Shown here piece by piece: positions 4,168 to 32,289 of a DNA stretch of 34,758 nt; positions within the stretch are counted from its first letter, which is position 1, and the number at the start of each line of letters is the position of its first letter. The stretch lies in IMG/VR virus record IMGVR_UViG_3300013132_000126, positions 1 through 34,758 of that record; one strand, 5' to 3'. A program made the translations under genes and the position numbers. Below the pieces are notes generated by a model, which was not told the DNA's origin, made no database searches, and saw only the letters and a list, made by a program, of their open reading frames with translations. Source of the DNA: a virus.

Positions 4168-4175
4168 CTGTCACC

Positions 4176-12588: not shown

Positions 12589-13325
12589 TAGGCGGCTCCC
12601 ATTTTGATGATGCCGCCAAGGTGAGAGATGATCTCGTCGGCCTGATCGGCCAGCAGGCTGTCAGACACCTTGCTGCTGCGGATCTTGTAATCCTGCCTAA
12701 CCTTTTCCCAATAGTCGCCGTCCAGCCGTCCTGTCTCCTGCGCCTTGGCGTAAAGCACCAGGATCTCGTCAAGCTGCTTGCGGCTAGCCCTCAGAGTCTT
12801 TGCAGGCTTTTCAACAGGCGCAGTTGTCGTTGTCACGACCGGCACGACATTGGCGACAATGACCTCGGCGTCGTGTGGGATCTCCTCGGCCGGGGTCGTC
12901 TCCAGTCCGGCGTTGAGCAGCGGCACTACCCACGCCAGGGCGCTCCGACAGGCGCGACTGGTGGCGCGCGTCTGAGCCATGGCACGCCTGGCGTACTTTG
13001 GACGCCTCGTCCACATCGGCTCATCGACGCCGACATAACCCTCACTCGATGCGACCACCTCGCCATCGGACAGGCGCACCAGATCGCACACGGCGCGGAT
13101 GTCGCCGCCGTCGAGCTCCTCCACGACGCTGATGCGAGGGGACAACCCGTTGGCCGCAGCAAGCGCCTGCCACCCCTCGGCCTTGATGTAGCTCTTTCCT
13201 TGGAGCTGCATCGAGCACTGCAGCACAATGGCTCGGCAGGCCTCGGCCACCTGCTCGCCTTTTCGCACGACCTCGCGCGGCATCACCGCCGTGGTCTGCA
13301 CCTCATTGGCTGGAACCAGACTCAT
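12588..13325 (-). CDS. Putative recombination/annealing-associated protein
   Basis: 245 residues. The core SYIKAEGWQALAAANGL, then RRPKYARRAMAQTRATSRA and ACRSALAWVVPLLNAGLE followed by TTPAEEIP, matches a family common in phages and actinobacteria that is usually encoded near ssDNA-binding and recombination genes. A Thr-rich linker (VVTTTTAP) separates it from a helical C-terminal domain of about 70 residues. A strand-annealing or replication-restart role is inferred from neighbours such as DUF669 and RusA. It begins with ATGA coupling to the CsrA-like gene. Confidence 0.6.
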   Translation of the reverse strand: MSLVPANEVQTTAVMPREVVRKGEQVAEACRAIVLQCSMQLQGKSYIKAEGWQALAAANGLSPRISVVEELDGGDIRAVCDLVRLSDGEVVASSEGYVGVDEPMWTRRPKYARRAMAQTRATSRACRSALAWVVPLLNAGLETTPAEEIPHDAEVIVANVVPVVTTTTAPVEKPAKTLRASRKQLDEILVLYAKAQETGRLDGDYWEKVRQDYKIRSSKVSDSLLADQADEIISHLGGIIKMGAA

Positions 13326-13663
13326 CGCTCAACCTCCTGTTCGACTTCAACTTTCATCTGCCAAATCCTTCCCTTGTTTCGATAGACGCGACCAATCGCG
13401 TCCTCGTAAACCAACCACCCATCGACGCTCTCATGCCGCGTCCACGAGGAGGACATCGGCGGCTTGACGGTCTCCCATCCCGAGACCGTGTTGGTCTCCA
13501 GGACTTTCTTGCGCATTACAGTGACCTCGTTGCCGGCGTGGATTCCCACGCGCACCTTGCCATTGCGGACATCTAAAATCTCGATCTTGATCTGCTCGGC
13601 TTGCGTGTCGACGACCAGATGGTCGTTGCTATCACCGCCGTGGCGCAGCGTTAGCACTAGCAT
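13322..13663 (-). CDS. CsrA-like post-transcriptional regulator with C-terminal extension
   Basis: 113 residues. The first 56 align with CsrA/RsmA: MLVLTLRHGG for the first strand, IKIEILDVRNGKVRVGI for the middle strands and EVTVMRKKVLE for the last strand and helix. CsrA dimers bind GGA motifs in mRNA leaders and repress or activate translation. Here a further 57 residues (rich in Trp, Val, Glu) follow, about double the normal length of 60. AAGGAG seven bases before the ATG sets the start. A phage copy could reprogramme host translation or control its own GGA-rich junctions. Confidence 0.78.
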   Translation of the reverse strand: MLVLTLRHGGDSNDHLVVDTQAEQIKIEILDVRNGKVRVGIHAGNEVTVMRKKVLETNTVSGWETVKPPMSSSWTRHESVDGWLVYEDAIGRVYRNKGRIWQMKVEVEQEVER

Positions 13664-13881
13664 CACGCGACTCCTTTCATGATCCGAAGCCGAGTCATCC
13701 GAATAAACAGGTCGTGCATGCTGCGATCGATCTTGTCTACTTCCTGCTTGTAGCGGACGCAGTCCTGCCACCGCTCCTCGACCCATGCGGCCGTCTTGGC
13801 CGCCAGCATGTGCCGGCGATGCAGCACCAGCAACTCTTGCTCATTGAGCAAACGGTCGTATTGATCGTCATCTGCCACCAT
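13663..13881 (-). CDS. Small coiled-coil-like hypothetical protein
   Basis: 72 residues, strongly charged and helical with many His, Arg, Gln and Glu (LLNEQELLVLHRRHMLAAK). It resembles a short coiled coil. GGAGG lies four bases before the ATG, and the stop overlaps the CsrA-like start as TGATG. No family recognised. Confidence 0.6.
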   Translation of the reverse strand: MVADDDQYDRLLNEQELLVLHRRHMLAAKTAAWVEERWQDCVRYKQEVDKIDRSMHDLFIRMTRLRIMKGVA

Positions 13882-14522: not shown

Positions 14523-14686
14523 GGACAAACTCCCCATCAATGGGGTGCGCACCTCTGCGCTCATTGCGGCGCGCGTCCAGGCGCCGGAGTAAGGGATGTC
14601 CTTACTTCTGTTACTGTACGACTGTCCACTAAAATCGGACAAGTCGCAGTATTGAAAAAATTACAGCCACAGGACTTGTCCGGCAA

Positions 14687-14925
14687 GTACACACGGTACA
14701 CAATTCCAAAACGCAGCACACAAAAACGCGGGGTTTTTGCGGGTTTTGCGTACACAAACTTTTCTAGGCTTTTTTACGCAAAGTCTTGTAAGAGAACGAC
14801 TTATCTATTCATTTTAGATTGGTTCGGGACCAAGAGGTCGCAGGTTCGAATCCTGTCGCCCCGACTCGACTTACGACAAAAAGCCGGTACACAAAAAAAG
14901 CAAATGGTACACAAAAAAGTACCAA
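14687..14925 (+). repeat. GTACACA repeats flanking attP (arm-type sites)
   Basis: The motif GTACACA or GTACACAA occurs at 14687, 14696, 14750, 14887 and 14907, on both sides of the tRNA-derived core, with a related GCACACAAAAA at 14715. Two more copies lie inside the integrase gene (15605, 15618) and a palindromic form at 14023. Direct repeats in this position are typical of arm-type binding sites for the N-terminal domain of tyrosine integrases. Confidence 0.5.
14819..14864 (+). other. attP: attP core: 3' half of tRNA-Pro(CGG)
   Basis: The plus strand reads as a tRNA from the anticodon stem to the discriminator base: TTGG, loop TTCGGGA with anticodon CGG at 14825-14827 and G37, CCAAG, AGGTC, T-arm GCAGG-TTCGAAT-CCTGT, acceptor CGCCCCG and A73. 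The 5' half is absent, so it is not a working tRNA. This is the usual form of a phage attachment core that rebuilds the host tRNA 3' end on integration. It ends 40 bases before the integrase start. Confidence 0.8.
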
Positions 14926-16034
14926 AGCTGTGCCATCACAAGGCTAAGGGTCTGGCGTATGTGCGAGACCCGAGAACCGGAACCCGGCATTACTTTGGAC
15001 GCGCCAACACAATTCAAAGCGTCGAGCGGTACAACGCTTGGGTGCGCAGGTATGCGCAGGAAGTCAGCGTCACCGCTGCGCCAGTGGCGAGGCCGGCTCA
15101 GGTGGCTGGACTCATGGCTCTTTTTTATGCCGACTGCCAAAGGGTTTACAGAACCGCCGATGGTGTCGAAACCGAGACGCTAGGGGTAGTTAGGTCGGTC
15201 ATGCGAGAGCACATGGCCGAGCTGGCCGTCCGTCCGCTGCATGAGGTAGGCAAAGCGGACCTAATTGCCATACGGCAAACCTTGATCCTGCGAAATCTTG
15301 CGCGCAAAACGATCCGCGAATACATGCGGATTGTGTTGCAGATGTTCAAGTGGGGCGCTGGCTTAGACCTCATGGATGAAGCGCAGTATTTGCGCATGCG
15401 CACCCTGCCAGCGCTTCGCCAAGGGGAGACTCGGCCATCAAAGAAAGTGCAGCCAATACCAAGAAAACATCTGTTTATGATCCTTCGCCAGCTTAAGGAG
15501 CCTTGGAAAACCGTACTGGCTTGGCAACTTTTGACTGGTCAACGCACGGAAACGGCGCTCCGTGTCCAATCAGACGAAATCGATCAATCTATTAGGCCGT
15601 GGCGGTACACACCTCGGGTACACAAAAACACCTGGCGAGGTCATGCGCTGACCATCCTTGTCGGTCCTCGCGCGCGCAAACTGCTAGCGCCGTTTCTTTT
15701 AAAAAGTGGGTACCTTTTCCCCGCCAGAAAAATGAATGTGCGAGTAAATTGCCAGGCGATGAGCAAGCCTCGGGATAGTGACGCCTACCGGCTGGCATTC
15801 ACGCGAGCGACCAAGCGGCTTGGTCTGCCGCCGTACAACCCTCAACAGGTTCGGCACACTGCTGCCACTTTTTTGGTTGGCCGCATGGTTCCTGAGTCGA
15901 TCATCGGTGCCATTCTTGGCCATCACGGCCGTGGCGACGATGACTCGATTTCAACCGGCTCCACCTCCATCACAGGCCGATATGCCGCCGTGCCAAGGAG
16001 GCGGGTCGAGGCTGTGGTCGAAAAATGGGGATAA
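14904..16034 (+). CDS. int: Tyrosine recombinase integrase
   Basis: 376 residues from the ATG at 14904. The N-terminus (KVPKLCHHKAKGLAYVRDPR then TGTRHYFG) is the small domain seen in many planctomycete-type integrases, followed by a core-binding helical domain (about 60-180) and a catalytic domain. Visible catalytic residues are Arg in LLTGQRTETALR, a Lys in HKNTWRGHAL, Arg in QQVRHTAATFL, His in ILGHHG and Tyr in TGRYAAV. The first His of the usual H-x-x-R box is Gln here. The frame is open upstream through attP to 14652, but the homologous N-terminus and att position favour 14904; the ribosome site is weak. It drives integration into tRNA-Pro. Confidence 0.85.
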   Translation: MVHKKVPKLCHHKAKGLAYVRDPRTGTRHYFGRANTIQSVERYNAWVRRYAQEVSVTAAPVARPAQVAGLMALFYADCQRVYRTADGVETETLGVVRSVMREHMAELAVRPLHEVGKADLIAIRQTLILRNLARKTIREYMRIVLQMFKWGAGLDLMDEAQYLRMRTLPALRQGETRPSKKVQPIPRKHLFMILRQLKEPWKTVLAWQLLTGQRTETALRVQSDEIDQSIRPWRYTPRVHKNTWRGHALTILVGPRARKLLAPFLLKSGYLFPARKMNVRVNCQAMSKPRDSDAYRLAFTRATKRLGLPPYNPQQVRHTAATFLVGRMVPESIIGAILGHHGRGDDDSISTGSTSITGRYAAVPRRRVEAVVEKWG

Positions 16035-16730: not shown

Positions 16731-17621
16731 TCATATCGTCCAGCTCAGGCGGCGAACCGGGAATCCGGCAATCGCTGAAAACGCCCAGCTATCGTTCTGT
16801 CGCAGCATCTTGTCGATGACACTGCTCGATGCGTAAAACCCCTCGGGACCGGGATCACCCGGACCTGTCGGACCTGTGTGCGTCGACGCTCCCCATGAGT
16901 TGTCAATGCGGCCGTATTCCGCGCCATCGATCGTGCTGTACCCGCACAGGCACATGCAGTGAGCCCATGAGCCGGATGGCTGGCTCATGCCGTTTTTGTC
17001 GCGCGTCATTTTGAACCCTTGGCTACTGCAGACACTGATGCCGTATCCGCTGGCCATCATGCGCTTGGCCTCGGTCCAGCTCCGCACCTGTGTGGACATG
17101 ACCTGATGCTTGCGGCTTTCCGGTTCGAGCTCGTCAGGCACACCTGACGCGCCGTATCTCTGGCACCTGGCAACGCTGTAGGCGGTCAAATCGATTGAGC
17201 CATACTTGCCTCGCGGGATAAGGCCGCCGGTGACGCTGACCCATTTGGCCGCCCACGCACCGACCGCACCGTCTCCACGGAGGCGACCGCCGGCCACCTC
17301 GACGCGAGCGCCGCCGTAGATGCACTCCTCGGCCAACTTGCGGAACTCTTCCTTCTCACCGTTGGCGATCTCGGCACACATGCTGTACTCAATAGCACGA
17401 GCCGTGCCAAATGCGACGCACGATCCGACCTCGCCTTGTGTCGCCGGCGGCAACAAGTCGCCTGTGACATGTCGCGCAAACTGCCAAAGGTGTACATGAT
17501 CCGGCAGCGGATGATCATGCTGTCCGGCCGGAGTGTCGCCGGCGACAGGATACGGCAGCTCTTGGAGGAGCTGGTCAACCGCCTCGTCGTCCCTGACCCA
17601 TCCGGTGTAGATTTCGCTCAC
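16731..17621 (-). CDS. Papain-like (C1) cysteine peptidase
   Basis: 296 residues from a GTG start that overlaps the previous stop as GTGA. The catalytic set of papain is visible: QGEVGSCVAFG (oxyanion Gln62 and Cys68), HCMCLCGYS (His near residue 220) and GRIDNSWG (Asn). A Gly/Pro stretch (TGPTGPGDPGPEG) follows. No signal peptide is seen. No peptidoglycan hydrolase is evident in the window, so this may be the lytic enzyme, attacking a protein wall, or a virion-associated peptidase. The fold is clear, the target is inferred. Confidence 0.8.
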   Translation of the reverse strand: MSEIYTGWVRDDEAVDQLLQELPYPVAGDTPAGQHDHPLPDHVHLWQFARHVTGDLLPPATQGEVGSCVAFGTARAIEYSMCAEIANGEKEEFRKLAEECIYGGARVEVAGGRLRGDGAVGAWAAKWVSVTGGLIPRGKYGSIDLTAYSVARCQRYGASGVPDELEPESRKHQVMSTQVRSWTEAKRMMASGYGISVCSSQGFKMTRDKNGMSQPSGSWAHCMCLCGYSTIDGAEYGRIDNSWGASTHTGPTGPGDPGPEGFYASSSVIDKMLRQNDSWAFSAIAGFPVRRLSWTI

Positions 17622-18262
17622 TTCACCGACTCCAAGAGAGCCGCCGTCGTGGCGTAGATGTCGGCGACCTGCTGGCGCTGAGCCGGCGTGATGCTAGCGG
17701 CTGGATCATCAGGCACCACCGTGGCAATCTCGGCGCCCACACGCTCACGCAGCGTTGCCAGCTTGGTGCGAGGCACGCCGGCCGAGAGCTTGAGCAGCGC
17801 CTCGTAAAGCGCGCCTGCCGTGTCGTATTGCTTGCGTGCCTCGACGGCGCACTGGCGGTAGAGCTGCGCCACGGCGACGCGGGATGAGTCCCTGTCAGGC
17901 TCTTGAATCGCACCCCAGATAGCCAGCAGCGAACGCTCGTAGGCAGTCGGCTCTTTTGGCCTTGGCGGCTGCGTTTCGCCAACGACAACCGTGATGATCA
18001 CCGGGTCGGATGGCATGTCACCGAGTGCGGTGTATGCCAGCAGGCGGTACCGTCCTGGCAATGGAGCCGTGACGACCGTGGCTGTCGGATCGGACAAGAG
18101 TCCGGCCGGGAATGAATTGAGGCCGTTGTCCAGCGAATAGTATTTGACGCGCTTTCCGTCGGTCTTTGGCGTGATGGCGATAAACGCACCCGGTTCGCCT
18201 CGCACCTCGGCAGGCACCTCGATCTTTTGGCCGACCAGTAGCAGCAGCGCCGCGACGATCAT
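17618..18262 (-). CDS. Secreted or membrane-anchored hypothetical protein
   Basis: 214 residues with an N-terminal hydrophobic segment (MIVAALLLLVGQKIEVPAEV) that looks like a signal peptide or anchor. Next comes a beta-rich region of about 75 residues, a Pro-rich hinge (GETQPPRPKEP) and a helical domain of about 120 residues. It is ATGA-coupled to the holin-like gene before it and GTGA-coupled to the peptidase after it. It may deliver or regulate the peptidase at the envelope; the family is unknown to me. Confidence 0.55.
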   Translation of the reverse strand: MIVAALLLLVGQKIEVPAEVRGEPGAFIAITPKTDGKRVKYYSLDNGLNSFPAGLLSDPTATVVTAPLPGRYRLLAYTALGDMPSDPVIITVVVGETQPPRPKEPTAYERSLLAIWGAIQEPDRDSSRVAVAQLYRQCAVEARKQYDTAGALYEALLKLSAGVPRTKLATLRERVGAEIATVVPDDPAASITPAQRQQVADIYATTAALLESVK

Positions 18263-18504
18263 GTGTGCTCCTTCCCTCGACAGACTGTGCTCACCCGCTC
18301 AATTTCCTTGGCCAGTTGCGCCTGCGTCTGAGCGATGGCGTCAAGGGTCGACTCTAGAGACGCAAGGAAGGCAAAGTGCCTATCCCGCAGCGGGATCACG
18401 ACCTGTGTGCCGATCCAGGCCGCCAGGTGATAGCTGCCGTAGGCGATGGCGCAGCAGATGGCTGTTGGCAATCCAAGGTCTCGGATGAACTGGATCGGAT
18501 CCAT
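18259..18504 (-). CDS. Holin-like membrane protein
   Basis: 81 residues: short N-terminus (MDPIQFIRDLG), one hydrophobic helix (LPTAICCAIAYGSYHLAAWI) and a charged coiled-coil tail (LDAIAQTQAQLAKEIERV). Size and layout fit a single-span holin or a small membrane partner of the lysis system. The ATG at 18504 is nine bases from AGGAGG; the ATG at 18510 is too close. It lies just upstream of the secreted protein and the papain-like peptidase, suggesting a lysis cassette. Confidence 0.5.
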   Translation of the reverse strand: MDPIQFIRDLGLPTAICCAIAYGSYHLAAWIGTQVVIPLRDRHFAFLASLESTLDAIAQTQAQLAKEIERVSTVCRGKEHT

Positions 18505-18534
18505 CGGCATAGTCCTCCTCTACGGACAGACTAC

Positions 18535-19401
18535 CTAGTCGTGAGTCCGAAACTGCCTAGCCTGCGTGTCGTCACGGTGCCATAGATCGGGGTGCATCAT
18601 CTCGACATCAACCTCTACGACGATGCACTGGTCAAGCGGCAAGCGGCGCCGAAAGTAGTCGCGCATCTGCTTGACGCTCCACCCCATCTCGTAGGCGGCG
18701 ACCAGATGGTTTCGGTATTTGTCGTTCAGTGTCAGGCAGTATTGGACCGGCACGCCAAACCGCATAAACCTATGGCACCATTGCAGGTCCGAGTGGCACA
18801 GCACCTTGCCGCCGGCGCGGCGTACTTTTTCGTGGATGTAAACCTCCTCGCCGGAAAACCCCACAAAGTCTTGCGAAAACTCAGGCCACGCATCCCGTCG
18901 CATGAGCATGTATGCCGTGCCGTGCGCTTCTACCTCAAAGCACAACGGCGCCTGCTGGCGTGTGTGCCAGACCCCAAGCATGCCGCCGCGCAGTTCCGCA
19001 AGCAGCTCGGTGGCGATGGTGACGCCGGACTCGTTAACCAGCGGACCAACCCACATGTCATTGCTGATGCAGACCGAGTTGATAAATCGCTTGATCGTGT
19101 CGACATGGCCAGGAGACAGCAGGACATGAGAATCGAGCAGGAGGACATGCTCGCCCTTGGCATGCTCAAACACGCTGTTCTTGGCGTGCGCCGGACCTCG
19201 GTTCTTTGATGCGTGGATGTAGCGAGCCTTGGCGTGGCCGCAGGCAATAGCCAGATCTTGGTTGGCCGTCGGCATGTCGTCGATGACCAGCAGCTCGACC
19301 TCGGTGTCTGACAACGGGACATGATGCAGTCGCAACGACGACAGGGTCCACCATGCACCCTGAGCGTCGCCGTAGTTGGCCATGCCGATGGTAAGCTTCA
19401 T
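18535..19401 (-). CDS. GT-A glycosyltransferase with DSH motif
   Basis: 288 residues with a GT2-like fold: MKLTIGMANYGD, nucleotide-binding strand VELLVIDDMP, and LLLDSHVLLSPG where D90-S-H92 is the metal-binding DXD equivalent. The later SGEEVYIHEKVRRAGG resembles the acceptor-side GGEx...E block. A DSH triad is also the metal motif of polypeptide GalNAc-transferases, though the common bacterial relatives usually have DCH. It follows two genes from the Thr/Ser-rich tail proteins, ATGA-coupled to a Cys-rich small protein, so sugar transfer onto these virion linkers is a reasonable hypothesis. Fold certain, acceptor unknown. Confidence 0.8.
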   Translation of the reverse strand: MKLTIGMANYGDAQGAWWTLSSLRLHHVPLSDTEVELLVIDDMPTANQDLAIACGHAKARYIHASKNRGPAHAKNSVFEHAKGEHVLLLDSHVLLSPGHVDTIKRFINSVCISNDMWVGPLVNESGVTIATELLAELRGGMLGVWHTRQQAPLCFEVEAHGTAYMLMRRDAWPEFSQDFVGFSGEEVYIHEKVRRAGGKVLCHSDLQWCHRFMRFGVPVQYCLTLNDKYRNHLVAAYEMGWSVKQMRDYFRRRLPLDQCIVVEVDVEMMHPDLWHRDDTQARQFRTHD

Positions 19402-19763
19402 TTAGACTCGTACCTGTCACATCCCACGCACTGGCGAATCTCAGTCTGCCGTGGAGCATACGGCCGGCACTGCCCGTAGACGCTGCACTGCCGCAGCAGC
19501 GCCGCGCCGCCGCCGCAACCGCAGGAAGGTTTGTCTTCAAGCGCCACGCCAAGGTGGAAGCATGGGTTTCTGATGACGGTTTTGATTCGTTCTAATTGCG
19601 CTTTTTGCTGCTCGGTAATTTGAGGCGGAGCTGGCGCCGGAGCAGTCGCTGGCGTAACGGTTGCAGGATCACCACCCCACATGGATCGGTAGCGCTCGTC
19701 GTGTTCGTACAGCCAGCACAGCCGGCAGGTCGGATGCGGTGGGTCGTGGCGACAGGGTTTCAT
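19398..19763 (-). CDS. Cys-rich protein paired with the glycosyltransferase
   Basis: 121 residues with three Cys/His groups: CRHDPPHPTCRLCWLYEHD at the start, CFHLGVALEDKPSCGCGGG in the middle and CRPYAP..CVGCDRYE at the end, separated by a Pro/Ala linker and a helix. This layout belongs to a family I recognise as commonly encoded beside such glycosyltransferases and Thr-rich proteins. Zinc or iron-sulphur binding is likely. It is joined by ATGA to the genes on both sides, so the three are made together. Function unknown. Confidence 0.6.
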   Translation of the reverse strand: MKPCRHDPPHPTCRLCWLYEHDERYRSMWGGDPATVTPATAPAPAPPQITEQQKAQLERIKTVIRNPCFHLGVALEDKPSCGCGGGAALLRQCSVYGQCRPYAPRQTEIRQCVGCDRYESK

Positions 19764-21076
19764 TCGGTGAGGCTCAGTGTGAATGCGCCATCGGCTTGAT
19801 TTCCATAAACAATACCTGCATTAGGATTTGATCCACTCAACTCGCAGGTGTCAAAATAACTAGGAAAATCAATGGTGTAATTGATTGGCAAAACAGGACA
19901 TGAAAAATTTATTTGATCACCGTTTGCCTGCCGCCCGACAAATGTGCATGGTGTAAAGTTGTCTTTGCCTTCAACTATCCACGAAATAAACGCGCCTAAA
20001 ATTCTTCCGCCGCCTTCTCCGCATTCAATGTTTAATCCGACATGGACATACAGATCGTTGTCGCAATCGTATTGTGCGGCGCCAAAACAGTTACCGAGCC
20101 GATAATATGTCAGGCCGTTGCACGGGGTGACTTTCTGATATTTTAGTCCGTTAAAATTTACAGAACCAGTGCTGGCGTAACTGTAGAGAGTTGGAACTCC
20201 GTTGGTCCTAGAAACAAAATTGATTTGCACGGACACCCCGTCCATGCAATCAAATAAACCAGCCATGTTAAATGTTACATAAAGAACTGCAGGAATTGTT
20301 TCGCCGCAGCAAGTAACTGGACAGCAATCATTATTTCCGCAGCACGCCTGACATGTTAGCCGTCCGCAGTTCGCCGTCTGGTATTCGCCATCCACTGTCC
20401 CCGGTGTTGTCGGCGCTTGGCATGAGCAACCATTCGAGCAATTGCCGGGACCGTACTTGAGCCATGTGGCTCCTGCGGCCGACCAACGCCAAGTGCATCC
20501 GCCAGTGCATGGCGCGGCGGTTGTCGTCGTGGTCGTAGTGGTCGATGATGTCGTGCTTGTGCTTGTCGAGGTAGTGCTGGTCGATGTGGATGTCGTGCTA
20601 GTCGAGCTGGAGCTTGTCGAGGTCGTGCTGCTGGATGTTGATGTCGTCGTGGTTGTGGTCGTCGTCGTTGTGCCACCAGGTATGCAGTAGCCACCTGCTG
20701 TCTCGCCGTTGACTGTCCCCGGTGTCTCAGGAGGTGGAGGACATCCACAGCCCTCGCCAACACATCCTGAAAATTCAAGAACCCATTGATTAAGCGCGTC
20801 TAACCACTGGTACTGACAAACCCCCTCGCATGGCGCCGCAGTGGTGGTAGTCGTGGTAGTAGTGGTCGTGCTACTTACTGGCTCCTCGGTTGTCGTCGTG
20901 CTAGTCGGCGTCGAGTCAATACACCAAGTTGCAACCTCCTCGCCAATAAATTCACCCGGCGTTGGAGGCACATACGAGCATTCGCACGGAGCCGTGCAAT
21001 CGCTGGACAGGATCGACCAGCTACTGCCGTCCCAAATCCAAAAGCATGTCGTTTCGCACAGGTTGTATTCAGGCAT
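19760..21076 (-). CDS. Modular Cys/Trp-rich tail protein with Thr/Ser mucin-like linkers
   Basis: 438 residues. Three copies of a Cys/Trp module lie near residues 6-50, 82-130 and 190-240, each starting C-x3-C-x-[WY]-x-W (CETTCFWIW, CEGVCQYQW, CTGGCTWRW) and continuing with C-x-C-x-x-P and P-G-x-x-x-G-E. They are joined by runs of Thr and Ser (about 20 and 50 residues) ending AAPC. Residues 245-438 form a Cys-rich beta domain encoded by visibly AT-richer DNA. The long Thr/Ser linkers look like bacterial mucin stalks. Likely a virion spike or receptor-binding protein modified by the nearby glycosyltransferase. Confidence 0.65.
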   Translation of the reverse strand: MPEYNLCETTCFWIWDGSSWSILSSDCTAPCECSYVPPTPGEFIGEEVATWCIDSTPTSTTTTEEPVSSTTTTTTTTTTAAPCEGVCQYQWLDALNQWVLEFSGCVGEGCGCPPPPETPGTVNGETAGGYCIPGGTTTTTTTTTTSTSSSTTSTSSSSTSTTSTSTSTTSTSTSTTSSTTTTTTTTAAPCTGGCTWRWSAAGATWLKYGPGNCSNGCSCQAPTTPGTVDGEYQTANCGRLTCQACCGNNDCCPVTCCGETIPAVLYVTFNMAGLFDCMDGVSVQINFVSRTNGVPTLYSYASTGSVNFNGLKYQKVTPCNGLTYYRLGNCFGAAQYDCDNDLYVHVGLNIECGEGGGRILGAFISWIVEGKDNFTPCTFVGRQANGDQINFSCPVLPINYTIDFPSYFDTCELSGSNPNAGIVYGNQADGAFTLSLTE

Positions 21077-21269
21077 CTCCGCGCCTCGGTGGAGGCGTGG
21101 TTGTCCTGCCAGTCGTTGTCATGTCTCCAAAATAGACGCCGTCTCGTAGCGGCGGCCAGCACGGCGGATCGCACGACTCATGCGCGTAGGGAACCCACTG
21201 CATGCCATCCCACATCCATTGGCAGTCGATGGGAGTCTGAGTGGTCGGGATCACATCGGCGTGCAGCAT
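21069..21269 (-). CDS. Single-module Cys/Trp protein
   Basis: 66 residues carrying one copy of the Cys/Trp module (DCQWMWDGMQW, then CDPPCWPP) and a short Thr/Pro tail. It overlaps the end of the upstream Thr-rich gene by 19 bases and the start of the next by eight. It looks like a free-standing unit of the module repeated in the following protein, possibly cut off from it by mutation or serving as a separate building block. Confidence 0.55.
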   Translation of the reverse strand: MLHADVIPTTQTPIDCQWMWDGMQWVPYAHESCDPPCWPPLRDGVYFGDMTTTGRTTTPPPRRGDA

Positions 21270-22009
21270 GTTGATGTCGTTTCCCCTTCCGTCGTGCCGT
21301 TAAAAGTTGGATATGATGGGATCGCCATAGGGTTACAGAAATTACCGTACAAACTCCAGAAATCACCCATCCACATCCAGAACGCATACCCATAGGGTGC
21401 GGCATCGCATGATGTGCTTGTCGTTGATGTCGTGCTGCTGGATGTCGATGTAGTTGAGCTGGTGGTCGATGTGCTACTGGTCGTGGTGCTTGTAGAGGTG
21501 CTTGAAGTAGAGCTTGTCGTGGTGCTGCTTGTCGGCGCCGCCGTTGTTGTCGTCGTGGTCGTCGTGCAGATATAGGCGCACGGTATGCACACGGTCGAAT
21601 AGACAGGCGTGATGACGCCATCAACGCAGGACAGCGAGGTCACAAAATCAATCGTCAGGGTTTCGCAAGAGCTGCCGCCAGCGATGACTAGATAGACGCT
21701 GCCTGTGGCCACATCGCCGGCGTAGCGGCCGATGTACTTCGTGTTGGTTGTCAGCGCCGCGCCGTTGATCTCCCGGATCAGGATACTGCCAAGATCTGTC
21801 CAGGTTGCCGTGGTCTCGTTGTACTCCTGCAGGTAGCCGGGATAGGTGCCGCTAGTCGGAGATCCTGACACCCTGACCACATGCACGATCGGGAGCTGTC
21901 CGGCAAACTCCTGCGGCAGAGTCTTGGTGTTCAGCAACCCGCGCTCATAGTCCGACAGCACCGCCGCCAGGCGTTTCAGGTCTTCGTCGCTGACAAGGTA
22001 TCCAGCCAT
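21251..22009 (-). CDS. Tail protein with Thr/Ser-rich stalk
   Basis: 252 residues. The N-terminal half has a short helix (DEDLKRLAAVLSDYERGL) and a beta-rich domain ending CIPCAYIC. A Thr/Ser run of about 50 residues follows, then a C-terminal part with WMWMGDFW that is a degenerate Cys/Trp module. The start ATG shares one base with the stop of the previous tail gene. At DNA level the linker is an ACN/TCN trinucleotide repeat (21412-21569), likely prone to length change. A virion location is inferred from position. Confidence 0.6.
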   Translation of the reverse strand: MAGYLVSDEDLKRLAAVLSDYERGLLNTKTLPQEFAGQLPIVHVVRVSGSPTSGTYPGYLQEYNETTATWTDLGSILIREINGAALTTNTKYIGRYAGDVATGSVYLVIAGGSSCETLTIDFVTSLSCVDGVITPVYSTVCIPCAYICTTTTTTTTAAPTSSTTTSSTSSTSTSTTTSSTSTTSSTTSTSSSTTSTTSTSCDAAPYGYAFWMWMGDFWSLYGNFCNPMAIPSYPTFNGTTEGETTSTCCTPM

Positions 22010-22947
22010 CACAGACTCGGGAATGCCACGCGAGGATACACATGGAAGGTCAGGTAGGTGTAGGCGCCGACCGGGTCGGCCTCGATCAGCGTGCGGCTTA
22101 GCTTGTATCCGCTGCCATCGAGCGGAACAGGCGATGACACCGGAACGCCGTTCATGGTGATGTTGCGCATCTCGCCGCTGATGGCGCTTTTTTCGCGCTT
22201 GCCGGCATCCATCACGACGACGGCCCACCCGAGCGGCCGATAAGAAAACACAAGGCTCCAGCGCCAATACGCGACATTGTTTTCAAACGCTCGCTGCGCC
22301 GAGACGCTGTCGAGCTTGGCCAGGCCGGCGCCGATCACATATGGTCCAATCGTGTAGCTGCTGCTGTTCACATACCCGATCGCCTGGATCCAGGCGCTCG
22401 ACGGTGCGCTGCTGCTGTTGAGTCCGACGGTGAGCGTTGCGGCGCCGCGCTCGGTCTCCAATGGTGGCAGGAATGGATCACCTGCCGAATTGACGATCGG
22501 CACGGTGTACGCATTGGTGCTCGTGTTGCACGCTGTTGCCGTGGCGATCTTGTAGCTGGTCGTGGAGATCTGATAGTCGCGCGGACGACTCAACGGCGAT
22601 TGCACGCGGTCAGCCGGATCCTGGCCTTTCTGCTGATTATCGACGGCAGGATCGCCGGTGCTGGCATTGCTGCTCTGGTCGGCATAGTAGGCATAGTTCG
22701 CCGTGACGCGCCATTGGAGCGGGTCGCCAGCGTCCTGCTGGACATCGAGTGATGTGCAGCGAGCCAACGCATCCTCGGGATGAGCTGACCAGATCAAGGG
22801 TATAGAAGGGTGAGAGCCTGCGTAATAGGCGCCATAAGTCGCTGAGTCAGTTCGTACTAAAAAAACGCGAGTATAGGTTCGTTGGTAACGCTGATCGACC
22901 GCAGCGCGTCGACCCTGATCCAGCTCCTTGAACAGCTTGTAGGCCAT
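22009..22947 (-). CDS. Tail protein downstream of the tape measure
   Basis: 312 residues with mixed beta character, many Tyr and Ser, and no transmembrane part. Recognisable stretches are RTYTRVFLVRTD near the start and WRWSLVFSYRPLGW near residue 235. The position directly after the tape measure gene fits a distal tail or tail-tip protein that starts baseplate assembly. No named family recognised with confidence. Confidence 0.6.
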   Translation of the reverse strand: MAYKLFKELDQGRRAAVDQRYQRTYTRVFLVRTDSATYGAYYAGSHPSIPLIWSAHPEDALARCTSLDVQQDAGDPLQWRVTANYAYYADQSSNASTGDPAVDNQQKGQDPADRVQSPLSRPRDYQISTTSYKIATATACNTSTNAYTVPIVNSAGDPFLPPLETERGAATLTVGLNSSSAPSSAWIQAIGYVNSSSYTIGPYVIGAGLAKLDSVSAQRAFENNVAYWRWSLVFSYRPLGWAVVVMDAGKREKSAISGEMRNITMNGVPVSSPVPLDGSGYKLSRTLIEADPVGAYTYLTFHVYPRVAFPSL

Positions 22948-22948
22948 G

Positions 22949-25423
22949 TTATCTGCCTATTGCCGCCACCGGCGGTCCCTTGACTTTCTCGAATGCCTTG
23001 ACCAGTTGATCCGAGTATGCCAACTGCTTGTCGCTGTTGAACGCCGCGCGCTCGGTGGCGATGCGGATCTTCTCCTGGATCGACATCGTCTCCTCGCCGT
23101 ACTGCGCGCGCACACGAATCTCGACATCGGCGGCGCTGCCACGCACAGATGCAGACGAGAACTGCGACTCGCCGCCGATGTTGTTACTAATGAGATCCTG
23201 AAGGAGCTTGCCAGTCTTGCGGTTGGCTGCTTCGCGGAACCTGTTGATTTCTTTTTGATTGATTGCGCTTCCCATCAAGGCTTCTTTGGCTTCCGTTGCC
23301 GATTTTGAAATGTTTTGCAATTCATGGTTAAACGATTCAAACGGCGTGCGCATCTGCGTCAGCGTGTCGGTGGCAAACTTATTGGTGCTCTTGGCCATGG
23401 CCTCGAGAGCAAGTTGCGCCTCGCTCACTTGGTTGTTTAGTTTGTTGAATCCGTCGGCAACCTTCTGTTGGGGATTGGCGGCATTGGCGGCATCGCGAGC
23501 GGCAGCATTGGCTTTGATGTTGTTGAAAAACTCAGTGATTGCGGCCGACTGGCCAGCTCGTATAGTCGCGATCTCTTCCGGCCTGCCACGGATCAACTCT
23601 TGGTTGATTTCCGCTTCTCGTTGCAACCTTTTGGTTTTACCTGTGACCTGTCCGGAAACCCCCTCGCGCATGCTAATTTCAAATTTCTTGGCCATTAGCT
23701 CCAAAGAAGCAACCGCGTCCTCAATCGCAAATTTGAAATCTAGCGCCAGTTTGGCAAAACGCTCGGACAGGTCATAGGTGATATCCCGTATGTTTTTGAA
23801 TGTGTTCTGTATTCCCTGCGCCTTGTCCTTTGGATCAATCACCGGAATGAATGTGTCGGAGATCTCCTTAACAATGTCCCTGATCGCCATAAACGCGCCA
23901 CGCAGTCCGGCAGCGATCGAGGTGATGTCGAAGCTGTCCAGGAACATCTTCGAGATTTCGCGGAAGGTGTCCTCCATGGTCGTCTTGAGCCGCCGCACCT
24001 GGCCTTCAAACGAGCCGGCAAACCTTGCCGCCGCGTCCTGCATGTCCTTGCCGTTGGACGCAATCATGACCGCGCGGATTCCCTCGGCGCTGGTTACGGA
24101 ACCTTCCCGCACTGCCGCCATAGCCTCCTCGAGCGAATGCGTCTTGCCAGTGGTCTGCTCCAGCACCTTGGCCAGCGACTCGTAGACCCTGATGCCTTGG
24201 GACTGCAGCGCGTCCAGTTCGCCAGCGCCGGCGATGCCGGCCTTGAACATGCCGGCGATGGAGCTGGTGATCGTGGCGGCGCCTTGCTCGCCGAGGAGCT
24301 CGGCCGCACCCTGCACCTGCATCACGGTCTTGGTCGCCGCCTCCATGGAGATGCCGGCATTGGCCAGGCCGGACATGGCGGCGATGTTTTCCTTGAGAGC
24401 TACGCCGGACGCCATGGACGCCTGGCGCATGTCCTCGATCGCCTTCGTGCCTTTCGCAAAACTGCCGGCGAGGTACGCCGCGCGGATCTGCATCGACTCC
24501 AGCTCGGCGCCGAGCTGCGCGAACTGCATCGCTCCGCCGGCGATGCCACCGGCCACGCCAAATGCCATGCCGCCGGCGGCACGGATGTCGGCAGCACCGG
24601 CGGTCATGCTGGCCAACTTCTGGTAGGTCGACTTGTTGCGCCATTCGTCCAGCGCTTTTTTCTTCTCGGCCGCTTTTTCCTCGGCGCGAATGTCGGCCTC
24701 GATCTGCCGCGAAGTCATGCTCATGCGCCGAGCCTTGGTTTTTTCGTCGGCAAACAGCTTGTCTCTTTCCAAGGAGTTCATGCCGGCAAGCTGCTTTTTG
24801 CGCGCCTCGTCGGCGGCAGCCTGCTGCTTTTTCTGCGCTTGAGCCTCCTGATAGGCGCGAATCTGTGGCGCTGACATGGCGCCAAGCATCTTCTTTTCGC
24901 GCTCGGCTGCCTTGAAATTCTCCCGCTCCAGCGCATTCATTCCGCGCAGCTTTTCCTTGAACGCAGAAAACGCCGACTCCTTCTTGTCTCTGGCCTGCTG
25001 TTCAACCTTGGCTTTTTTCTCGGCCTCAGCTTCAGCCTTAATCTGCTCAGCAGTCATTCCCATGAGCCGAGCCTTCTTGCGCTCAGCGATCTTGTATTCC
25101 TCGCGCTCCAGCGCGTTCATGCCAGCCAGTCTGGCTTTCAGTGCGTTGTAGGAGTCTTCTTTTTGGATCGCCTCGGCACTCATCCCCATGCGGCGCTGCT
25201 TCGTTTCCCTTGCCAGGATAGCCTGTTGCCGCTCTAAAGCATTCATCGACTCCAGGCGCTTCTCAAACGCTTTCTGCTCGGCGTTGGCGCGCCTTTGCTT
25301 GATTGCAAGATCATCAATTTCTTGGCCGGTTTTCTCGACATTATCGGCAAGCTTTGCAAGGCCAGAGATTGCCTCGTCGCCGTCCCATCCCATGGCCAAA
25401 GATGTGCGGATGATGCTAGCCAC
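22949..25423 (-). CDS. Tape measure protein
   Basis: 824 residues; sets tail length and is injected with DNA. The GTG at 25423 is used because GGAGG lies six bases upstream; it overlaps the chaperone stop by eight bases. Residues about 55-270 hold four copies of a charged helical repeat with the core GMNALERE and a following GM(T/S)AEQIKAE block. A Gly/Ala-rich hydrophobic segment (GGMAFGVAGGIAGGAM) follows near 285-300, then a tape-measure core with AAYLAGSFAKG and a helical C-terminus. Length and place after the frameshifted chaperone genes make this assignment firm. Confidence 0.88.
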   Translation of the reverse strand: MASIIRTSLAMGWDGDEAISGLAKLADNVEKTGQEIDDLAIKQRRANAEQKAFEKRLESMNALERQQAILARETKQRRMGMSAEAIQKEDSYNALKARLAGMNALEREEYKIAERKKARLMGMTAEQIKAEAEAEKKAKVEQQARDKKESAFSAFKEKLRGMNALERENFKAAEREKKMLGAMSAPQIRAYQEAQAQKKQQAAADEARKKQLAGMNSLERDKLFADEKTKARRMSMTSRQIEADIRAEEKAAEKKKALDEWRNKSTYQKLASMTAGAADIRAAGGMAFGVAGGIAGGAMQFAQLGAELESMQIRAAYLAGSFAKGTKAIEDMRQASMASGVALKENIAAMSGLANAGISMEAATKTVMQVQGAAELLGEQGAATITSSIAGMFKAGIAGAGELDALQSQGIRVYESLAKVLEQTTGKTHSLEEAMAAVREGSVTSAEGIRAVMIASNGKDMQDAAARFAGSFEGQVRRLKTTMEDTFREISKMFLDSFDITSIAAGLRGAFMAIRDIVKEISDTFIPVIDPKDKAQGIQNTFKNIRDITYDLSERFAKLALDFKFAIEDAVASLELMAKKFEISMREGVSGQVTGKTKRLQREAEINQELIRGRPEEIATIRAGQSAAITEFFNNIKANAAARDAANAANPQQKVADGFNKLNNQVSEAQLALEAMAKSTNKFATDTLTQMRTPFESFNHELQNISKSATEAKEALMGSAINQKEINRFREAANRKTGKLLQDLISNNIGGESQFSSASVRGSAADVEIRVRAQYGEETMSIQEKIRIATERAAFNSDKQLAYSDQLVKAFEKVKGPPVAAIGR

Positions 25424-26080
25424 GCCTGACCTCCGCACCACTAGCCAGCAGGATCGCTCGCGCCTGCTCGGGACTCATCTCCCTCGTCGAGGACTCCTCG
25501 CCGTAGCGCGGCAGGAAGTCCGACATCGAGACATCCTTGGCCCACGGTGCCGTCGCGGCCCACGCCGCTGTCGCCGCCTGAATGTCGCCGCGAACCTGAC
25601 CCCATGGATCAACCGACATGAGCGCCATCCACTCGGCCAGCTCGCTCGCACTCATCCGCTCACCTAGCTCGGCGACCGTACAGCCGAGATGTCCGGCCAA
25701 GGCAAACATCAAGCGGCGGGTCGGTCGCTCGCGGAGTTTTTTTCCAGCGCATCCACATCGTCCTTGGTCATGCGGTTGAGCTTGAGCGCTCTCTCCCACA
25801 GACGGTCGGCGATGCCGGCAGGCAGCGAGCTGAGCTGCTGGATATCTGCATCCCCAAATAACCTGACGCCATGCTCATCGCACAGCGACAGGCTCAGCAG
25901 CTTGGCTCGAACATCCCGCCACTTGGCCATTCCCTTGGCTTCAATCGAGGCTCCCTCGTAGAGGTCGCGCTCGCCAGCTGTCAGCTCGCGCAGGTGGACC
26001 GCGTCTCCCCACTCGGGAACCTCGACGCGTTCCACCCGCACCTTGGCCTTGGACAGGATGTCCGCCTTGCTCAGTCCCAT
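25416..26080 (-). CDS. Tail assembly chaperone, -1 frameshift product (G-T type)
   Basis: The second chaperone frame (25416-25743) has no start of its own suited to translation and is reached by -1 slippage at A-AAA-AAC from the shorter upstream gene. The joint reads DALEKKLRERPTRR and leads into LAGHLGCTVAELGERMSA and AEWMALM, which is typical of the T-domain of lambda-like G/GT pairs. The fused protein binds the tape measure and tail tube subunits during tail assembly but is not in the virion. The product is about 221 residues. Confidence 0.8.
25709..26080 (-). CDS. Tail assembly chaperone (G type)
   Basis: 123 residues starting MGLSKADILSKAKV; it has the usual acidic and helical body (LRELTAGERDLYEGASIEAK) and ends SASDRPAA if no frameshift occurs. 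It lies between the tail tube and tape measure genes, the fixed place of this gene in long-tailed phages. GGAG precedes the ATG. The last part shares its DNA with the second chaperone frame. Confidence 0.8.
   Translation of the reverse strand: MGLSKADILSKAKVRVERVEVPEWGDAVHLRELTAGERDLYEGASIEAKGMAKWRDVRAKLLSLSLCDEHGVRLFGDADIQQLSSLPAGIADRLWERALKLNRMTKDDVDALEKNSASDRPAA
25736..25742 (-). promoter_or_regulatory. -1 frameshift slippery site A-AAA-AAC
   Basis: On the minus strand the codons GAA AAA AAC of the chaperone gene form the heptamer A AAA AAC in correct phase (frame checked from the ATG at 26080). A slip of one base backwards moves the ribosome into the second chaperone frame, 38 bases or so before the zero-frame stop. 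GC-rich sequence follows and may form a stimulatory stem. Confidence 0.8.
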
Positions 26081-28753: not shown

Positions 28754-30151
28754 TTAGGCCTGAGTGAGAAGCTTGATGGCGGCGCTGATCAGCACCTTGG
28801 AGTCGCACCGCTGGAACGCGGTGAACGCCACCTGGCCGTACTCGGCGTACCTTTCGTCCATCCTGACGACCTGGATGTCCAGTGCGTCGCGGATGATGTA
28901 CTTTCTGAAGTCGCCGAACAGCACGGTCTTGTTGGTCGTGGCGATCGTGCTGGACATCGAGTTGTTGATAAGCACCGGGTAGCCGAACAGTCGGTTTGGC
29001 TCGCCGACGATGTAGCTCTCGGTGAACACGGGACGACCCTGGCTGTCGAGCAGCTTTCGGATCGCAAGCAGCACATTGTCGTGCATCATGAACGCCGCAT
29101 CGGGACGATACGCCCGATCGAGCGAATGCACCAGATTCAGCAGGTCGTTGACCGCAATGGCTGCGGCGGCGGCGGAGGTGGCGCCAGCCGAGGCACCCGT
29201 CACCAGGCCTTGCGGCTGCGAGGAGCCGGTGCCGGTGGCGAAGTGGTCGGCCTGGATGCGGCCGAGTCGCTCGCCAAGCAGGTCACCCAAGAGGGTCGGG
29301 ATGTCGACGATCGAGTCTTGCATGAGCTCGACCGAGACATTGACCAGCTTGGAGCTGTACTTGTACGAGTTCAGAGTGACCTTGCCGAAAGTGACATCCT
29401 GCGAGTTGAACGCGGTGTTCTCGGCGATGATCTCACCCTTCTGGGTGGTGTCATTCACCGTCGGGATGTCGTAGGGGTTGCCGGTGCTGGTGCGGATCAC
29501 CTGCGCGTACTCGCGGACATTCGCGAAGTACAGGAGCTGCTTTTCCAGCGCGTCGGACAGCGTGGTGGGAACCAAGTGGCCGCCGGCGGTTGTGGTGCCG
29601 ACGGATTGCGCGCGCTGCTCGATTTCCTTGACGGAGCGAGGAGCGGTGGCGTGCAGCGCCACGGACAACGAGCGGGTGTTCAGGTTGAACCCGATCCGCT
29701 CAGCGGCGGCGGAATGAGCATCGGTGCAGAGGCCGGACGGCTGGAGCATCCACCCGCGCAGCGCCATGCTGCGGTCTTCCTTGGCCTTGCGGTCGTTGAG
29801 GTCCGACACATAGGCCGGAGCCTCAATCGGAGCGGGAGCGCTGCGGCGGCGCTCACCGGAAGTGCGTCGCAGGATCGACAGGCGGGACTCAAGGTTGTTA
29901 AGCCTCAAGCTGTTTTGGCCGACAGCAGGAGCCGCGACAGGAGCATCCTCGGCGGCGTCGTCGGCTGCGTCGCCGGCGACTTCGGCCTCGAGAGCGGCCA
30001 CGCGGCCATCAAGCTCAACCACCTTGGCGGCGAGAGCGTCCCAGCTCGCCTGCTCGTCAGGGGTGAGCTCGCGCTTGTTGAGGGACTCGAGCTGCGAGAC
30101 GAGGAGGCCGCGCTCCTCGATCAGCTTGTCGATCTGCTGAGTACGGTTCAT
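28754..30151 (-). CDS. HK97-fold major capsid protein with delta domain
   Basis: 465 residues. Residues 1-70 form a coiled coil (QQIDKLIEERGLLVSQLESL) that would act as the scaffolding delta domain. An Ala-rich linker follows, then the capsid fold from about residue 170: GGHLVPTTLSDALEKQLLY, ERLGRIQADHFATGTG, FMMHDNVLLAIRKLLDSQG and NRLFGYPVLINNSM. These are classic HK97-type signatures. CGGAGG upstream of the ATG sets the start. The prohead protease upstream would cut off the delta domain. Confidence 0.92.
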   Translation of the reverse strand: MNRTQQIDKLIEERGLLVSQLESLNKRELTPDEQASWDALAAKVVELDGRVAALEAEVAGDAADDAAEDAPVAAPAVGQNSLRLNNLESRLSILRRTSGERRRSAPAPIEAPAYVSDLNDRKAKEDRSMALRGWMLQPSGLCTDAHSAAAERIGFNLNTRSLSVALHATAPRSVKEIEQRAQSVGTTTAGGHLVPTTLSDALEKQLLYFANVREYAQVIRTSTGNPYDIPTVNDTTQKGEIIAENTAFNSQDVTFGKVTLNSYKYSSKLVNVSVELMQDSIVDIPTLLGDLLGERLGRIQADHFATGTGSSQPQGLVTGASAGATSAAAAAIAVNDLLNLVHSLDRAYRPDAAFMMHDNVLLAIRKLLDSQGRPVFTESYIVGEPNRLFGYPVLINNSMSSTIATTNKTVLFGDFRKYIIRDALDIQVVRMDERYAEYGQVAFTAFQRCDSKVLISAAIKLLTQA

Positions 30152-30202: not shown

Positions 30203-30775
30203 TCACGATCGGCGACCGCGCCGCTTGATCTGCTCGAGGCGCCAGGCGCGCGCTTGCTGGCATCGAGCCAGGTAATGGAACGAGGAGGCGCGCAGCGATC
30301 GCAGCGCCACCGATGTGTCCGGATAGGCCGGCATGGCGACGATGGAGACTTCGTGGAGATCCACATCCATGAGCGTGCGCAAGCGGCCGCCGCCCTCGGC
30401 TGTCCCCCATGAGTCGCCGCCGCCGGCCACAGTGAACCCGAACGACATCTGCGACACATCGCCGCGCTTCAGCAGCTCGCGCAAATCGTTGGCGTAGGTG
30501 GTATGCGGCAGGTCGATCTCGACCATCAACCCGCGCTGGTCGCTCGACAGGCGCAGCGTGCCGGCGCTTAGCCGACCGATCACCATGGAGTCGTCGTGGC
30601 CGACCAGCGCGCGGACATCAGCCCCGGACTTGAGCGACCGCTCAAACGCCGAGGGATCAATCACCTCGCGGAACCCTCCCAAGTCTTCGGACATCGGACC
30701 GTAGACGGCGGCATAGCCGACAGCCGTGTTGCCGTTGGTGCTGATCGAGCCGCCAGCGCGTCGCTCCATGCTCAT
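30203..30775 (-). CDS. HK97 family prohead protease (U35)
   Basis: 190 residues. VGYAAVYGPMSEDLGGFRE, then LVGHDDSMVIGRL with the active-site His, VSQMSFGFTV with the Ser, and LHEVSIVAMPAYPDT match family U35/S78. It trims capsid and scaffold during head maturation. The ATG at 30775 forms ATGA with the portal stop. 51 bases separate it from the capsid gene and hold the capsid ribosome site. Confidence 0.9.
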   Translation of the reverse strand: MSMERRAGGSISTNGNTAVGYAAVYGPMSEDLGGFREVIDPSAFERSLKSGADVRALVGHDDSMVIGRLSAGTLRLSSDQRGLMVEIDLPHTTYANDLRELLKRGDVSQMSFGFTVAGGGDSWGTAEGGGRLRTLMDVDLHEVSIVAMPAYPDTSVALRSLRASSFHYLARCQQARAWRLEQIKRRGRRS

Positions 30776-32289
30776 GGTTGCGCCTCCGGTTTGGTGCCGA
30801 TCGGTCGCCACTTGATCCCCCATGCGTGCTCGCCACCCGGCTTGCCGGCGGGGATCAACACGCGCTCGCGCTCAATCCCGCAGATTCGGCAGCGATTGGT
30901 CTTGCCGTGCTCGCACGACGCGATCTGGTGCTGAGTCATCTGCTCGGCTAGGCGGATGGTCGACTCGTCAATAGTCGCCAGGTCGTTGACTTCCTCGGAA
31001 ATGGGTGGCTCGCCGTCCGTGGTCGGGGTGACTGCAGGAGCAACAGTGCCCACGGACGGCGAGCTGGCCGGAGCGCTTGGACCAAGCGGCGCCTGGATCG
31101 GCTGCATGTTGAGCGGTTGGAGGTATTCGTCGCCGCCGGCGATTGGGTCGAGACCTTCCTTGGACCGGATCTCGTTGACGCTGAGCCATCCCCAATTGCG
31201 ACCGATGGCGTAGGCGTTATACCGTGCCGCCTGATCGGCTCGCAGGAGATCGTCGATCTTGTGCTCGGCGAAATAGATCCGGCGCTCAACGCCGGTCAGC
31301 AGCTTGGCGTAGATCTCCTGCTCGATGCGCACCAGCCATGGTCGGATCGTTTCAGTCAAAAACACAAGGTTTTCCGCCTCCATGGAGGCGTAGCTGGCGC
31401 CTTGTCCCCGCAGCTTGCCGACAGGGATGTTAAACCATCTGGCGACTTCTTGGAGCTGGAATTGCCTCGTCTGCAGGAACTGCGCGTCGTCAGGAGGGAT
31501 GCCAAGAGCGTCCCACTTCATGCCCTCCTCGAGGATGGCGACGCGGTGGCTGTTGTTGACGCCTTGATGCAGCCGCTCAAAGTCTTGGCGAAGACGGCCG
31601 CGTGCGTCATCGGATAGCCGGCCTGGATGCGTTAGCACCCCGGACGGCTTGGCTCCGGAGCCAAAGAACTTGGCACCAAACCGCTCGGCCGCCATGGTCA
31701 GGCCGATGGACTCCCGAGCCATGCGGATGACCGAGTAGCCGACAAGTCCGTCGAACCCGAGGCCACGCAAGTGGAATATCTCGCTCGGCAGGTACTGATG
31801 GGTGCCGACGCGGGGATGGCGGTACTCGTAGATGAGCTGGCCGCTGTCATCGCGGCGTGGCGCCATCCAGTCAGGACGCAGGATTGGCAGCGAGAGAACT
31901 TCTCCCGTCGGACCTCGCACGACCTCGGCGTATGCGTTGCCATAGGCCAGCACATGACCCATGAGCGTTTCGGCCCACAGCATCGCCGTGATCTCGGGGT
32001 GCGGCATGCAGTAGAGCAGCTCGTAGAGCGGGTGCTCCGCCGCAACCTTGCGACCCCTGCCGTCTACCGATCGCTCGTACAGGATCAATGGCAGGGAGCC
32101 GACCGTCTCCGAGATGACGCGGATGGCGCACCAGATCGGAGACGACTGCATCGCCGTGGACTCGGTCACCACGACGCCGGCGTCGGAACCACTGCCGCCA
32201 AACAGCGTGACAAGCGCCGGGTCGCGCAACGAGAAGGTTGCGCGGCTCTCCAAGCCAATCAAGGATCGCAGCGTGTTGACTAGTCCCAT
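30772..32289 (-). CDS. HK97 portal protein with Cys-rich tail
   Basis: 505 residues. AMQSSPIWCAIRVISETVG, HPLYELLYCMPHPEITA, YGNAYAEVVRGPTGEVLSL and RWFNIPVGKLRG are typical of the HK97 portal family, the dodecameric ring through which DNA passes. After a Pro/Ser/Thr linker (about 405-440) a C-terminal segment of about 60 residues carries CEHGKTNRCRICG, a likely zinc site not found in the standard portal. The start lacks a good Shine-Dalgarno; 29 bases separate it from the peptidase stop. Confidence 0.9.
   Translation of the reverse strand: MGLVNTLRSLIGLESRATFSLRDPALVTLFGGSGSDAGVVVTESTAMQSSPIWCAIRVISETVGSLPLILYERSVDGRGRKVAAEHPLYELLYCMPHPEITAMLWAETLMGHVLAYGNAYAEVVRGPTGEVLSLPILRPDWMAPRRDDSGQLIYEYRHPRVGTHQYLPSEIFHLRGLGFDGLVGYSVIRMARESIGLTMAAERFGAKFFGSGAKPSGVLTHPGRLSDDARGRLRQDFERLHQGVNNSHRVAILEEGMKWDALGIPPDDAQFLQTRQFQLQEVARWFNIPVGKLRGQGASYASMEAENLVFLTETIRPWLVRIEQEIYAKLLTGVERRIYFAEHKIDDLLRADQAARYNAYAIGRNWGWLSVNEIRSKEGLDPIAGGDEYLQPLNMQPIQAPLGPSAPASSPSVGTVAPAVTPTTDGEPPISEEVNDLATIDESTIRLAEQMTQHQIASCEHGKTNRCRICGIERERVLIPAGKPGGEHAWGIKWRPIGTKPEAQP

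Follow-up and report, generated by a model that had tools for sequence, protein, structure and literature searches.

The closest described counterpart of the system presented here comes from mycobacteriophages (Che8, Corndog, Myrna; Freeman et al. 2023). According to two papers that cite this work (PMC12363180, PMC12619734), glycosyltransferases (GTs) encoded by these phages modify the phages' own structural proteins, with capsid and tail tube glycosylated C-terminally. Virion glycosylation by phage genes is thus already known as such, and the self-glycosylation that a preliminary description of our locus had presented as a new mechanism is not new in this general form. The locus is a group of six minus-strand genes on the IMG/VR virus record IMGVR_UViG_3300013132_000126; the entire record of 34,758 bases is called the window in the following, and all positions are given in its numbering. 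The gene group most likely is a virion O-glycosylation cassette, with two mucin-like threonine/serine (Thr/Ser) stalk proteins and a GT that resembles the polypeptide GalNAc-transferases of family GT27.

As would be expected for phage-encoded virion glycosylation, the GT is linked to structural genes. In the window this is the tail module; in L238, a locus from a bacterial metagenome-assembled genome (L-numbers denote homologous loci used for comparison), the GT follows the capsid gene. L238 also resembles the mycobacteriophage system in that its capsid protein has a Thr tail at the C-terminus, as does a protein in tail-tube position. A difference lies in the putative targets, here long Thr/Ser tracts of mucin-like character that are found on a variety of carriers. 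A tblastn search with four members of the GT family against a phage collection including mycobacteriophages gave no match at E <= 1e-3 to 1e-8, which is not a direct GT-to-GT comparison. We found no description of this GT family, its pairing with Thr/Ser stalks, mucin-like phage glycosylation or a bacterial GT27 in the open-access literature searched; within that literature, the GT family and its mucin-like targets appear to be undescribed.

The window is a siphovirus-type contig with a late structural gene cluster. Six genes, coupled by stop/start or 4–19 nt overlaps, follow the tape measure gene:

22949..25441, minus strand: tape measure (Pfam TMP_3, E 7.8e-8, under the curated cut-off)
22009..22947, minus strand: 312-aa tail-region protein, an open reading frame (ORF) directly downstream of the tape measure, syntenic in L002
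21251..22009, minus strand: stalk A, 252 aa, with N-terminal domain, Thr/Ser tract and C-terminal cysteine/tryptophan (Cys/Trp) module (ORF, composition)
21069..21269, minus strand: 66-aa ORF, a single Cys/Trp module (ORF; motif common to L002, L006 and L030)
19760..21076, minus strand: stalk B, 438 aa (ORF, tracts; homologues in L002, L030 and L006)
19398..19763, minus strand: Cys-rich protein, 121 aa (ORF; kept in L002, L006 and L030)
18535..19401, minus strand: GT-A glycosyltransferase, 288 aa, GT27-like by predicted fold and catalytic motifs (Pfam, AlphaFold2, PDB matches, hhalign)

The first of the six genes and stalk A meet in a TGATG stop/start junction, and stalk A ends at 21251. The overlaps measure 19 nt between stalk A and the 66-aa ORF, 8 nt between that ORF and stalk B, and 4 nt each between stalk B and the Cys-rich gene (ATGA) and between the Cys-rich gene and the GT gene. 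Since the tape measure gene directly precedes it, the cassette is located at the end of the tail module. We could confirm the parts that the preliminary description had listed (stalks, Cys/Trp modules, small Cys-rich protein and GT-A enzyme) at their positions, as well as their tight coupling. It had also called the two stalks tail proteins; gene order directly behind the tape measure speaks for this assignment, which we infer from that order and not from homology. For the 312-aa protein, Pfam and PHROG scans gave no match.

The GT carries the motifs DSH (residues 90–92), FSGEE (182–186, with GEE at 184–186) and WCHRF (208–212). Its sequence matches Pfam PF00535 (GT2) with an E-value of 2.9e-10 (40.8 bits against a cut-off of 23.3), and this profile matches 18 of 18 family members at E <= 1. 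An AlphaFold2 model built from the 18-member alignment reached a mean pLDDT (predicted local distance difference test) of 90. When this model was compared with the PDB, the first 43 Foldseek entries and the first 27 VIA-align entries were polypeptide GalNAc-transferases (GT27); their structural Z was 22.7, versus 19.4 for the next family, so that GT27 ranks first in the structural check that had been proposed. In an hhalign alignment with GalNAc-T2 (query sequence verified against entry 2ffu; E 1.2e-4), DSH falls on DSH, FSGEE on WGGEN and WCHRF on GHVFR. All 94 homologues read have both W-x-H-x-F and the D-x-H motif, whose middle residue is S, C or G; a GGEE-type block was found in nearly all of them. 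In the aligned block, F[GS]GEE, most members have the GGE core; the W and N of WGGEN are not kept.

With GT27 (GalNAc-T2 and kin) the phage enzyme shares the GT-A fold as best match, D-S-H, the GGE block and a third His in an H-x-F context; a Ser/Thr polypeptide is its likely acceptor, too. It differs in its length of 288 aa, in its Pfam assignment and in its low identity (12–17%), and neither a lectin domain nor a membrane anchor was seen. Pfam detects no ricin-type lectin domain in the protein, which consists of the catalytic domain only. With bacterial GT2 enzymes it has in common the PF00535 match above cut-off and the N-terminal nucleotide-binding half, which matches many GT2 structures. 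It departs from them by D-x-H (DSH, DCH or DGH in every member read) instead of D-x-D, and by an acceptor half that matches no GT2 structure by sequence. The Skp1/mucin GlcNAc-transferases of family GT60 likewise have D-S-H, and their protein acceptors, protozoan mucins among them, are modified at Thr or hydroxyproline. The PDB matches listed for the phage model contain no GT60 entry; a relation to that family may still exist. Phage proteins annotated 'Glycosyltransferase, GlcNAc' in BFVD match the GT at 10–14% identity only.

A functional connection between enzyme and stalks is also supported by their co-occurrence. We searched viral sequences for a stalk-independent pattern (an A-[KR]-N ... 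GE ... DSH block), with the same pattern carrying DAD as control. The DSH pattern was present in 25 viral loci, nearly all of which match the window GT by tblastn; in 23 of them it lies in a GT reading frame of 120 residues or more. An upstream Thr/Ser stalk accompanies nine of these 23 loci and none of 80 DAD loci. A profile scan yielded 176 relatives, of which 80 viral homologues were retained and clustered at 90% identity, giving 47 testable clusters. Under a strict rule, 25 of the 47 clusters have a stalk on the same strand that ends at most 4 kb upstream, versus 0 of 87 DAD-type GT2 loci (p ~1.7e-14), a control set that is unmatched for phage type. The stalk lies within 400 nt upstream in 20 of the 47 clusters (controls 0/87), and a loose rule gives 32/47 versus 2/87. 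The GT hence does not occur mostly without Thr/Ser-rich proteins, and the cassette proposed at the outset draws support from this survey as well as from the GT27-like fold. A stalk gene directly precedes the GT in 17 of 44 loci, versus 4.95 expected from these same loci, and directly follows it in 1 of 44. This upstream preference, together with a comparison made inside single contigs, makes phage type an unlikely confounder. Well-supported branches of the GT tree show 10 or more changes of the stalk label, so the pairing has been gained or lost repeatedly. Since the same pairing is found in many unrelated phages, these viruses probably sugar-coat their own particles.

No match to four family members was found by tblastn among 50,697 phage records, and a plasmid search with one member gave no relative. 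The family is rare among the bacterial genomes sampled, with 2 of 294 and 2 of 199 cases, centre genomes counted. Homologues from bacterial genomes (L232–L245; Streptomyces, Brucella sp., Desulfofustis, Planctomycetota and others) mostly are longer ORFs.

The putative acceptor tracts comprise residues 145–204 of stalk A (82% Thr/Ser) and residues 52–83 (62%) and 132–191 (87%) of stalk B. The main tract in each stalk is about 50 residues of almost pure Thr/Ser, and both stalks contain a 40-residue segment of 100% Thr/Ser; in controls with each protein's own residues shuffled 1000 times, the maximum was 0.68 and 0.60. Thr in the tracts is encoded by all four Thr codons. Between window and L002, its closest relative, the stalk B tracts differ at a proportion of 0.27 of synonymous sites (pS) and 0.03 of nonsynonymous sites (pN), and all four amino acid changes are exchanges between Thr and Ser. 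An origin of the tracts by chance or as a DNA repeat (microsatellite) is ruled out by the codon variety, the mostly synonymous divergence and the restriction to Thr/Ser exchanges. From the high pS, the low pN and these exchanges it follows that selection retains hydroxyl residues in stalk B. The enzyme, too, is under purifying selection, with ratios of nonsynonymous to synonymous substitution rates (dN/dS) of 0.09 versus L002 and 0.14 versus L006. Stalk B is built from three Cys/Trp modules linked by its two Thr/Ser tracts, followed by a Cys-rich C-terminal domain. The Cys/Trp modules were seen in the phage group of the window only (motif in L002, L006 and L030). The 121-aa Cys-rich protein (dN/dS 0.11 versus L002) possibly is a zinc-binding accessory protein.

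The adjacent stalk carriers fall into 21 groups that have no detectable homology outside the tract, a grouping in which several carriers retain few residues after tract masking. In L238, the carrier is the major capsid protein (PHROG 4523, E 4.7e-34; Phage_capsid_4, E 2.3e-21), whose C-terminal Thr tail is followed 4 nt later by the start of the GT. The capsid protein (L238:1-1302) and the protein in tail-tube position (3756-4730; no family match) both end in poly-Thr. Some other carriers are small Thr proteins of 201 aa. As the carriers differ, the conserved neighbor of the GT is the Thr/Ser tract and no particular protein. In L025, L226, L217 and L019, genes for FkbM and other methyltransferases, a UDP-GlcNAc 2-epimerase and additional GTs lie behind the GT, an arrangement to be expected if the glycans are elaborated. 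We also observed that the stalks directly ahead of the GT in L179, L180, L184, L185, L189-L191, L193, L196, L202, L209, L218, L220, L221 and L224 share the motif C-x(2,5)-C-N-x-L-x-[FY] at their C-termini. Otherwise these stalk proteins are mostly without detectable relationship; the motif perhaps is an attachment peptide.

Taken together, we consider it probable that the GT is a phage polypeptide O-glycosyltransferase that adds sugar to Thr/Ser of the adjacent stalk tracts before tail assembly. The soluble, phage-encoded enzyme would act on the mucin-like tracts of the neighboring stalk proteins and attach a sugar, probably an N-acetylhexosamine from a host uridine diphosphate (UDP) sugar, to the Thr/Ser hydroxyls. 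This would happen while the stalks are synthesized, ahead of their assembly onto the tail. The Cys/Trp modules would then form disulfide- or metal-stabilized beads, spaced by stiff glycosylated stalks. In this scheme the tracts as acceptor, the host as source of the sugar donor and the position of the stalks on the virion are deductions, and a role of stalk glycosylation in protection or adhesion is a guess.

Several observations weigh against this interpretation, besides the unmatched controls mentioned above. By sequence, the enzyme scores as a generic GT2, and the hhalign probability for GalNAc-T2 is only 55%. Its C-terminal half alone has no meaningful relative in the PDB, only chance matches to phosphoribosyltransferases. 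Because of the GT2 score and the lack of a lectin domain, we call the enzyme GT27-like and do not assign it to GT27. The prediction for the C-terminal domain of stalk B (pLDDT 30 from four sequences) was unusable, so that the place of the stalks on the virion rests on gene order. In several large or T4-like phages the GT is far from stalks, and some family members are located among replication genes. In the sister group of the window's clade the GT is away from stalks, and in the nearest non-syntenic relatives (46–49% identity) it is not beside one. Of 12 records (10 GT clusters) without an adjacent stalk, seven carry poly-ACN runs elsewhere, whose reading frame was not verified individually; the other five have no such runs, and some of the 12 are short fragments. 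Finally, only 2 of 101 T6AAP-stalk loci in IMG/VR have this GT nearby. Comparison of this number with the 25 of 47 clusters makes the GT a good predictor of a stalk and the stalk a poor predictor of a GT.

The absence of this GT near most Thr stalks would also fit a superinfection-exclusion or seroconversion enzyme that acts on a host surface polysaccharide, with the stalks as flexible linkers that are nearby by chance. GT2-type enzymes altering the host O-antigen are common in phages, and the weak PHROG matches of the GT are to such enzymes. However, the GT gene lies among the late tail genes and is coupled by 4-nt overlaps, neither a second GT gene nor a transporter gene was seen beside it, and ordinary DAD-type GT2 loci have no stalk linkage (0/87). 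As the best fold matches moreover are protein transferases and not enzymes using lipid-linked sugars, we regard this explanation as unlikely. Still less probable, in our view, is that the enzyme targets another virion or host protein, or, for the members from T4-like and large phages, hypermodified DNA, and came to lie near stalks because the site downstream of tail-fiber genes accepts morons. The family members in L164 and L174 do adjoin DNA polymerase-like or replication genes, and DNA-modifying phage GTs are known (Pyle 2024, as cited in PMC12619734). Yet the window proteins that were scanned gave no sign of a hydroxymethyl-pyrimidine gene, and the linkage is to Thr tracts on carriers as varied as a capsid protein and the 201-aa Thr proteins, not to tail fibers as such. 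That the GT is inactive or vestigial and the pairing a hitch-hiking accident of one lineage is highly improbable in view of the low dN/dS (0.09 to 0.14), the fully retained metal-site motifs and the recurrent pairing on the GT tree.

The structural genes of the window encode a terminase large subunit, portal, head protease, major head protein, head-tail connectors and a tail assembly chaperone; an integrase (14652-16034) and replication genes are also present. Downstream of the GT come genes for a small holin-like protein, a protein of 214 aa and a papain-like peptidase. The main features outside the cassette are:

18259..18510, minus strand: 83-aa protein with hydrophobic N-terminal segment, holin-like by position (ORF; no match in family scans)
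25709..26080, minus strand: tail assembly chaperone (PHROG 344, E 2.9e-29)
28754..30151, minus strand: major head protein (PHROG 10, E 1.4e-71)
30772..32289, minus strand: portal protein (PHROG 12, E 2.1e-118)

The papain-family peptidase (16731-17621; PF00112, E 1.3e-6) occupies a lysis position, and the phage encodes a CsrA-like regulator (13322-13786; PF02599, E 3.5e-9). The tape measure has 830 aa in the window and 675 aa in L002, apparently due to degenerate repeats of about 40 residues near the N-terminus, which suggests different tail lengths in the two phages. A long ORF upstream of the integrase (14652-14960) reads 'GTKRSQVRILSPRLD', typical of a translated tRNA end. This stretch may mark the attachment site; ARAGORN found no complete tRNA gene in the window. 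Relatives of the integrase at about 30% identity occur in 41 of 294 Planctomycetota genomes, a count without a control phylum that is only suggestive of a Planctomycetota host.

If the proposed function holds true, phages from a wide range of lineages produce glycoproteins of the mucin type, using a GT27-like enzyme together with Thr/Ser tracts dedicated to the acceptor role. This would account for the poly-Thr proteins of phages, so far a puzzling class. We see about an even chance for a more general view, namely that a widespread, hitherto undescribed family of phage enzymes carries out mucin-type O-glycosylation in bacteria and recognizes the tract whatever its carrier (tail stalks, capsid C-termini, head fibers), so that many phages would be glycan-coated, and that the animal mucin-initiating enzymes may have a prokaryotic relative in this family. 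Enzymes with the proposed function would be a source of compact bacterial-type O-glycosyltransferases, and they would have a bearing on phage adsorption, immune visibility and the origin of mucin-type glycosylation.

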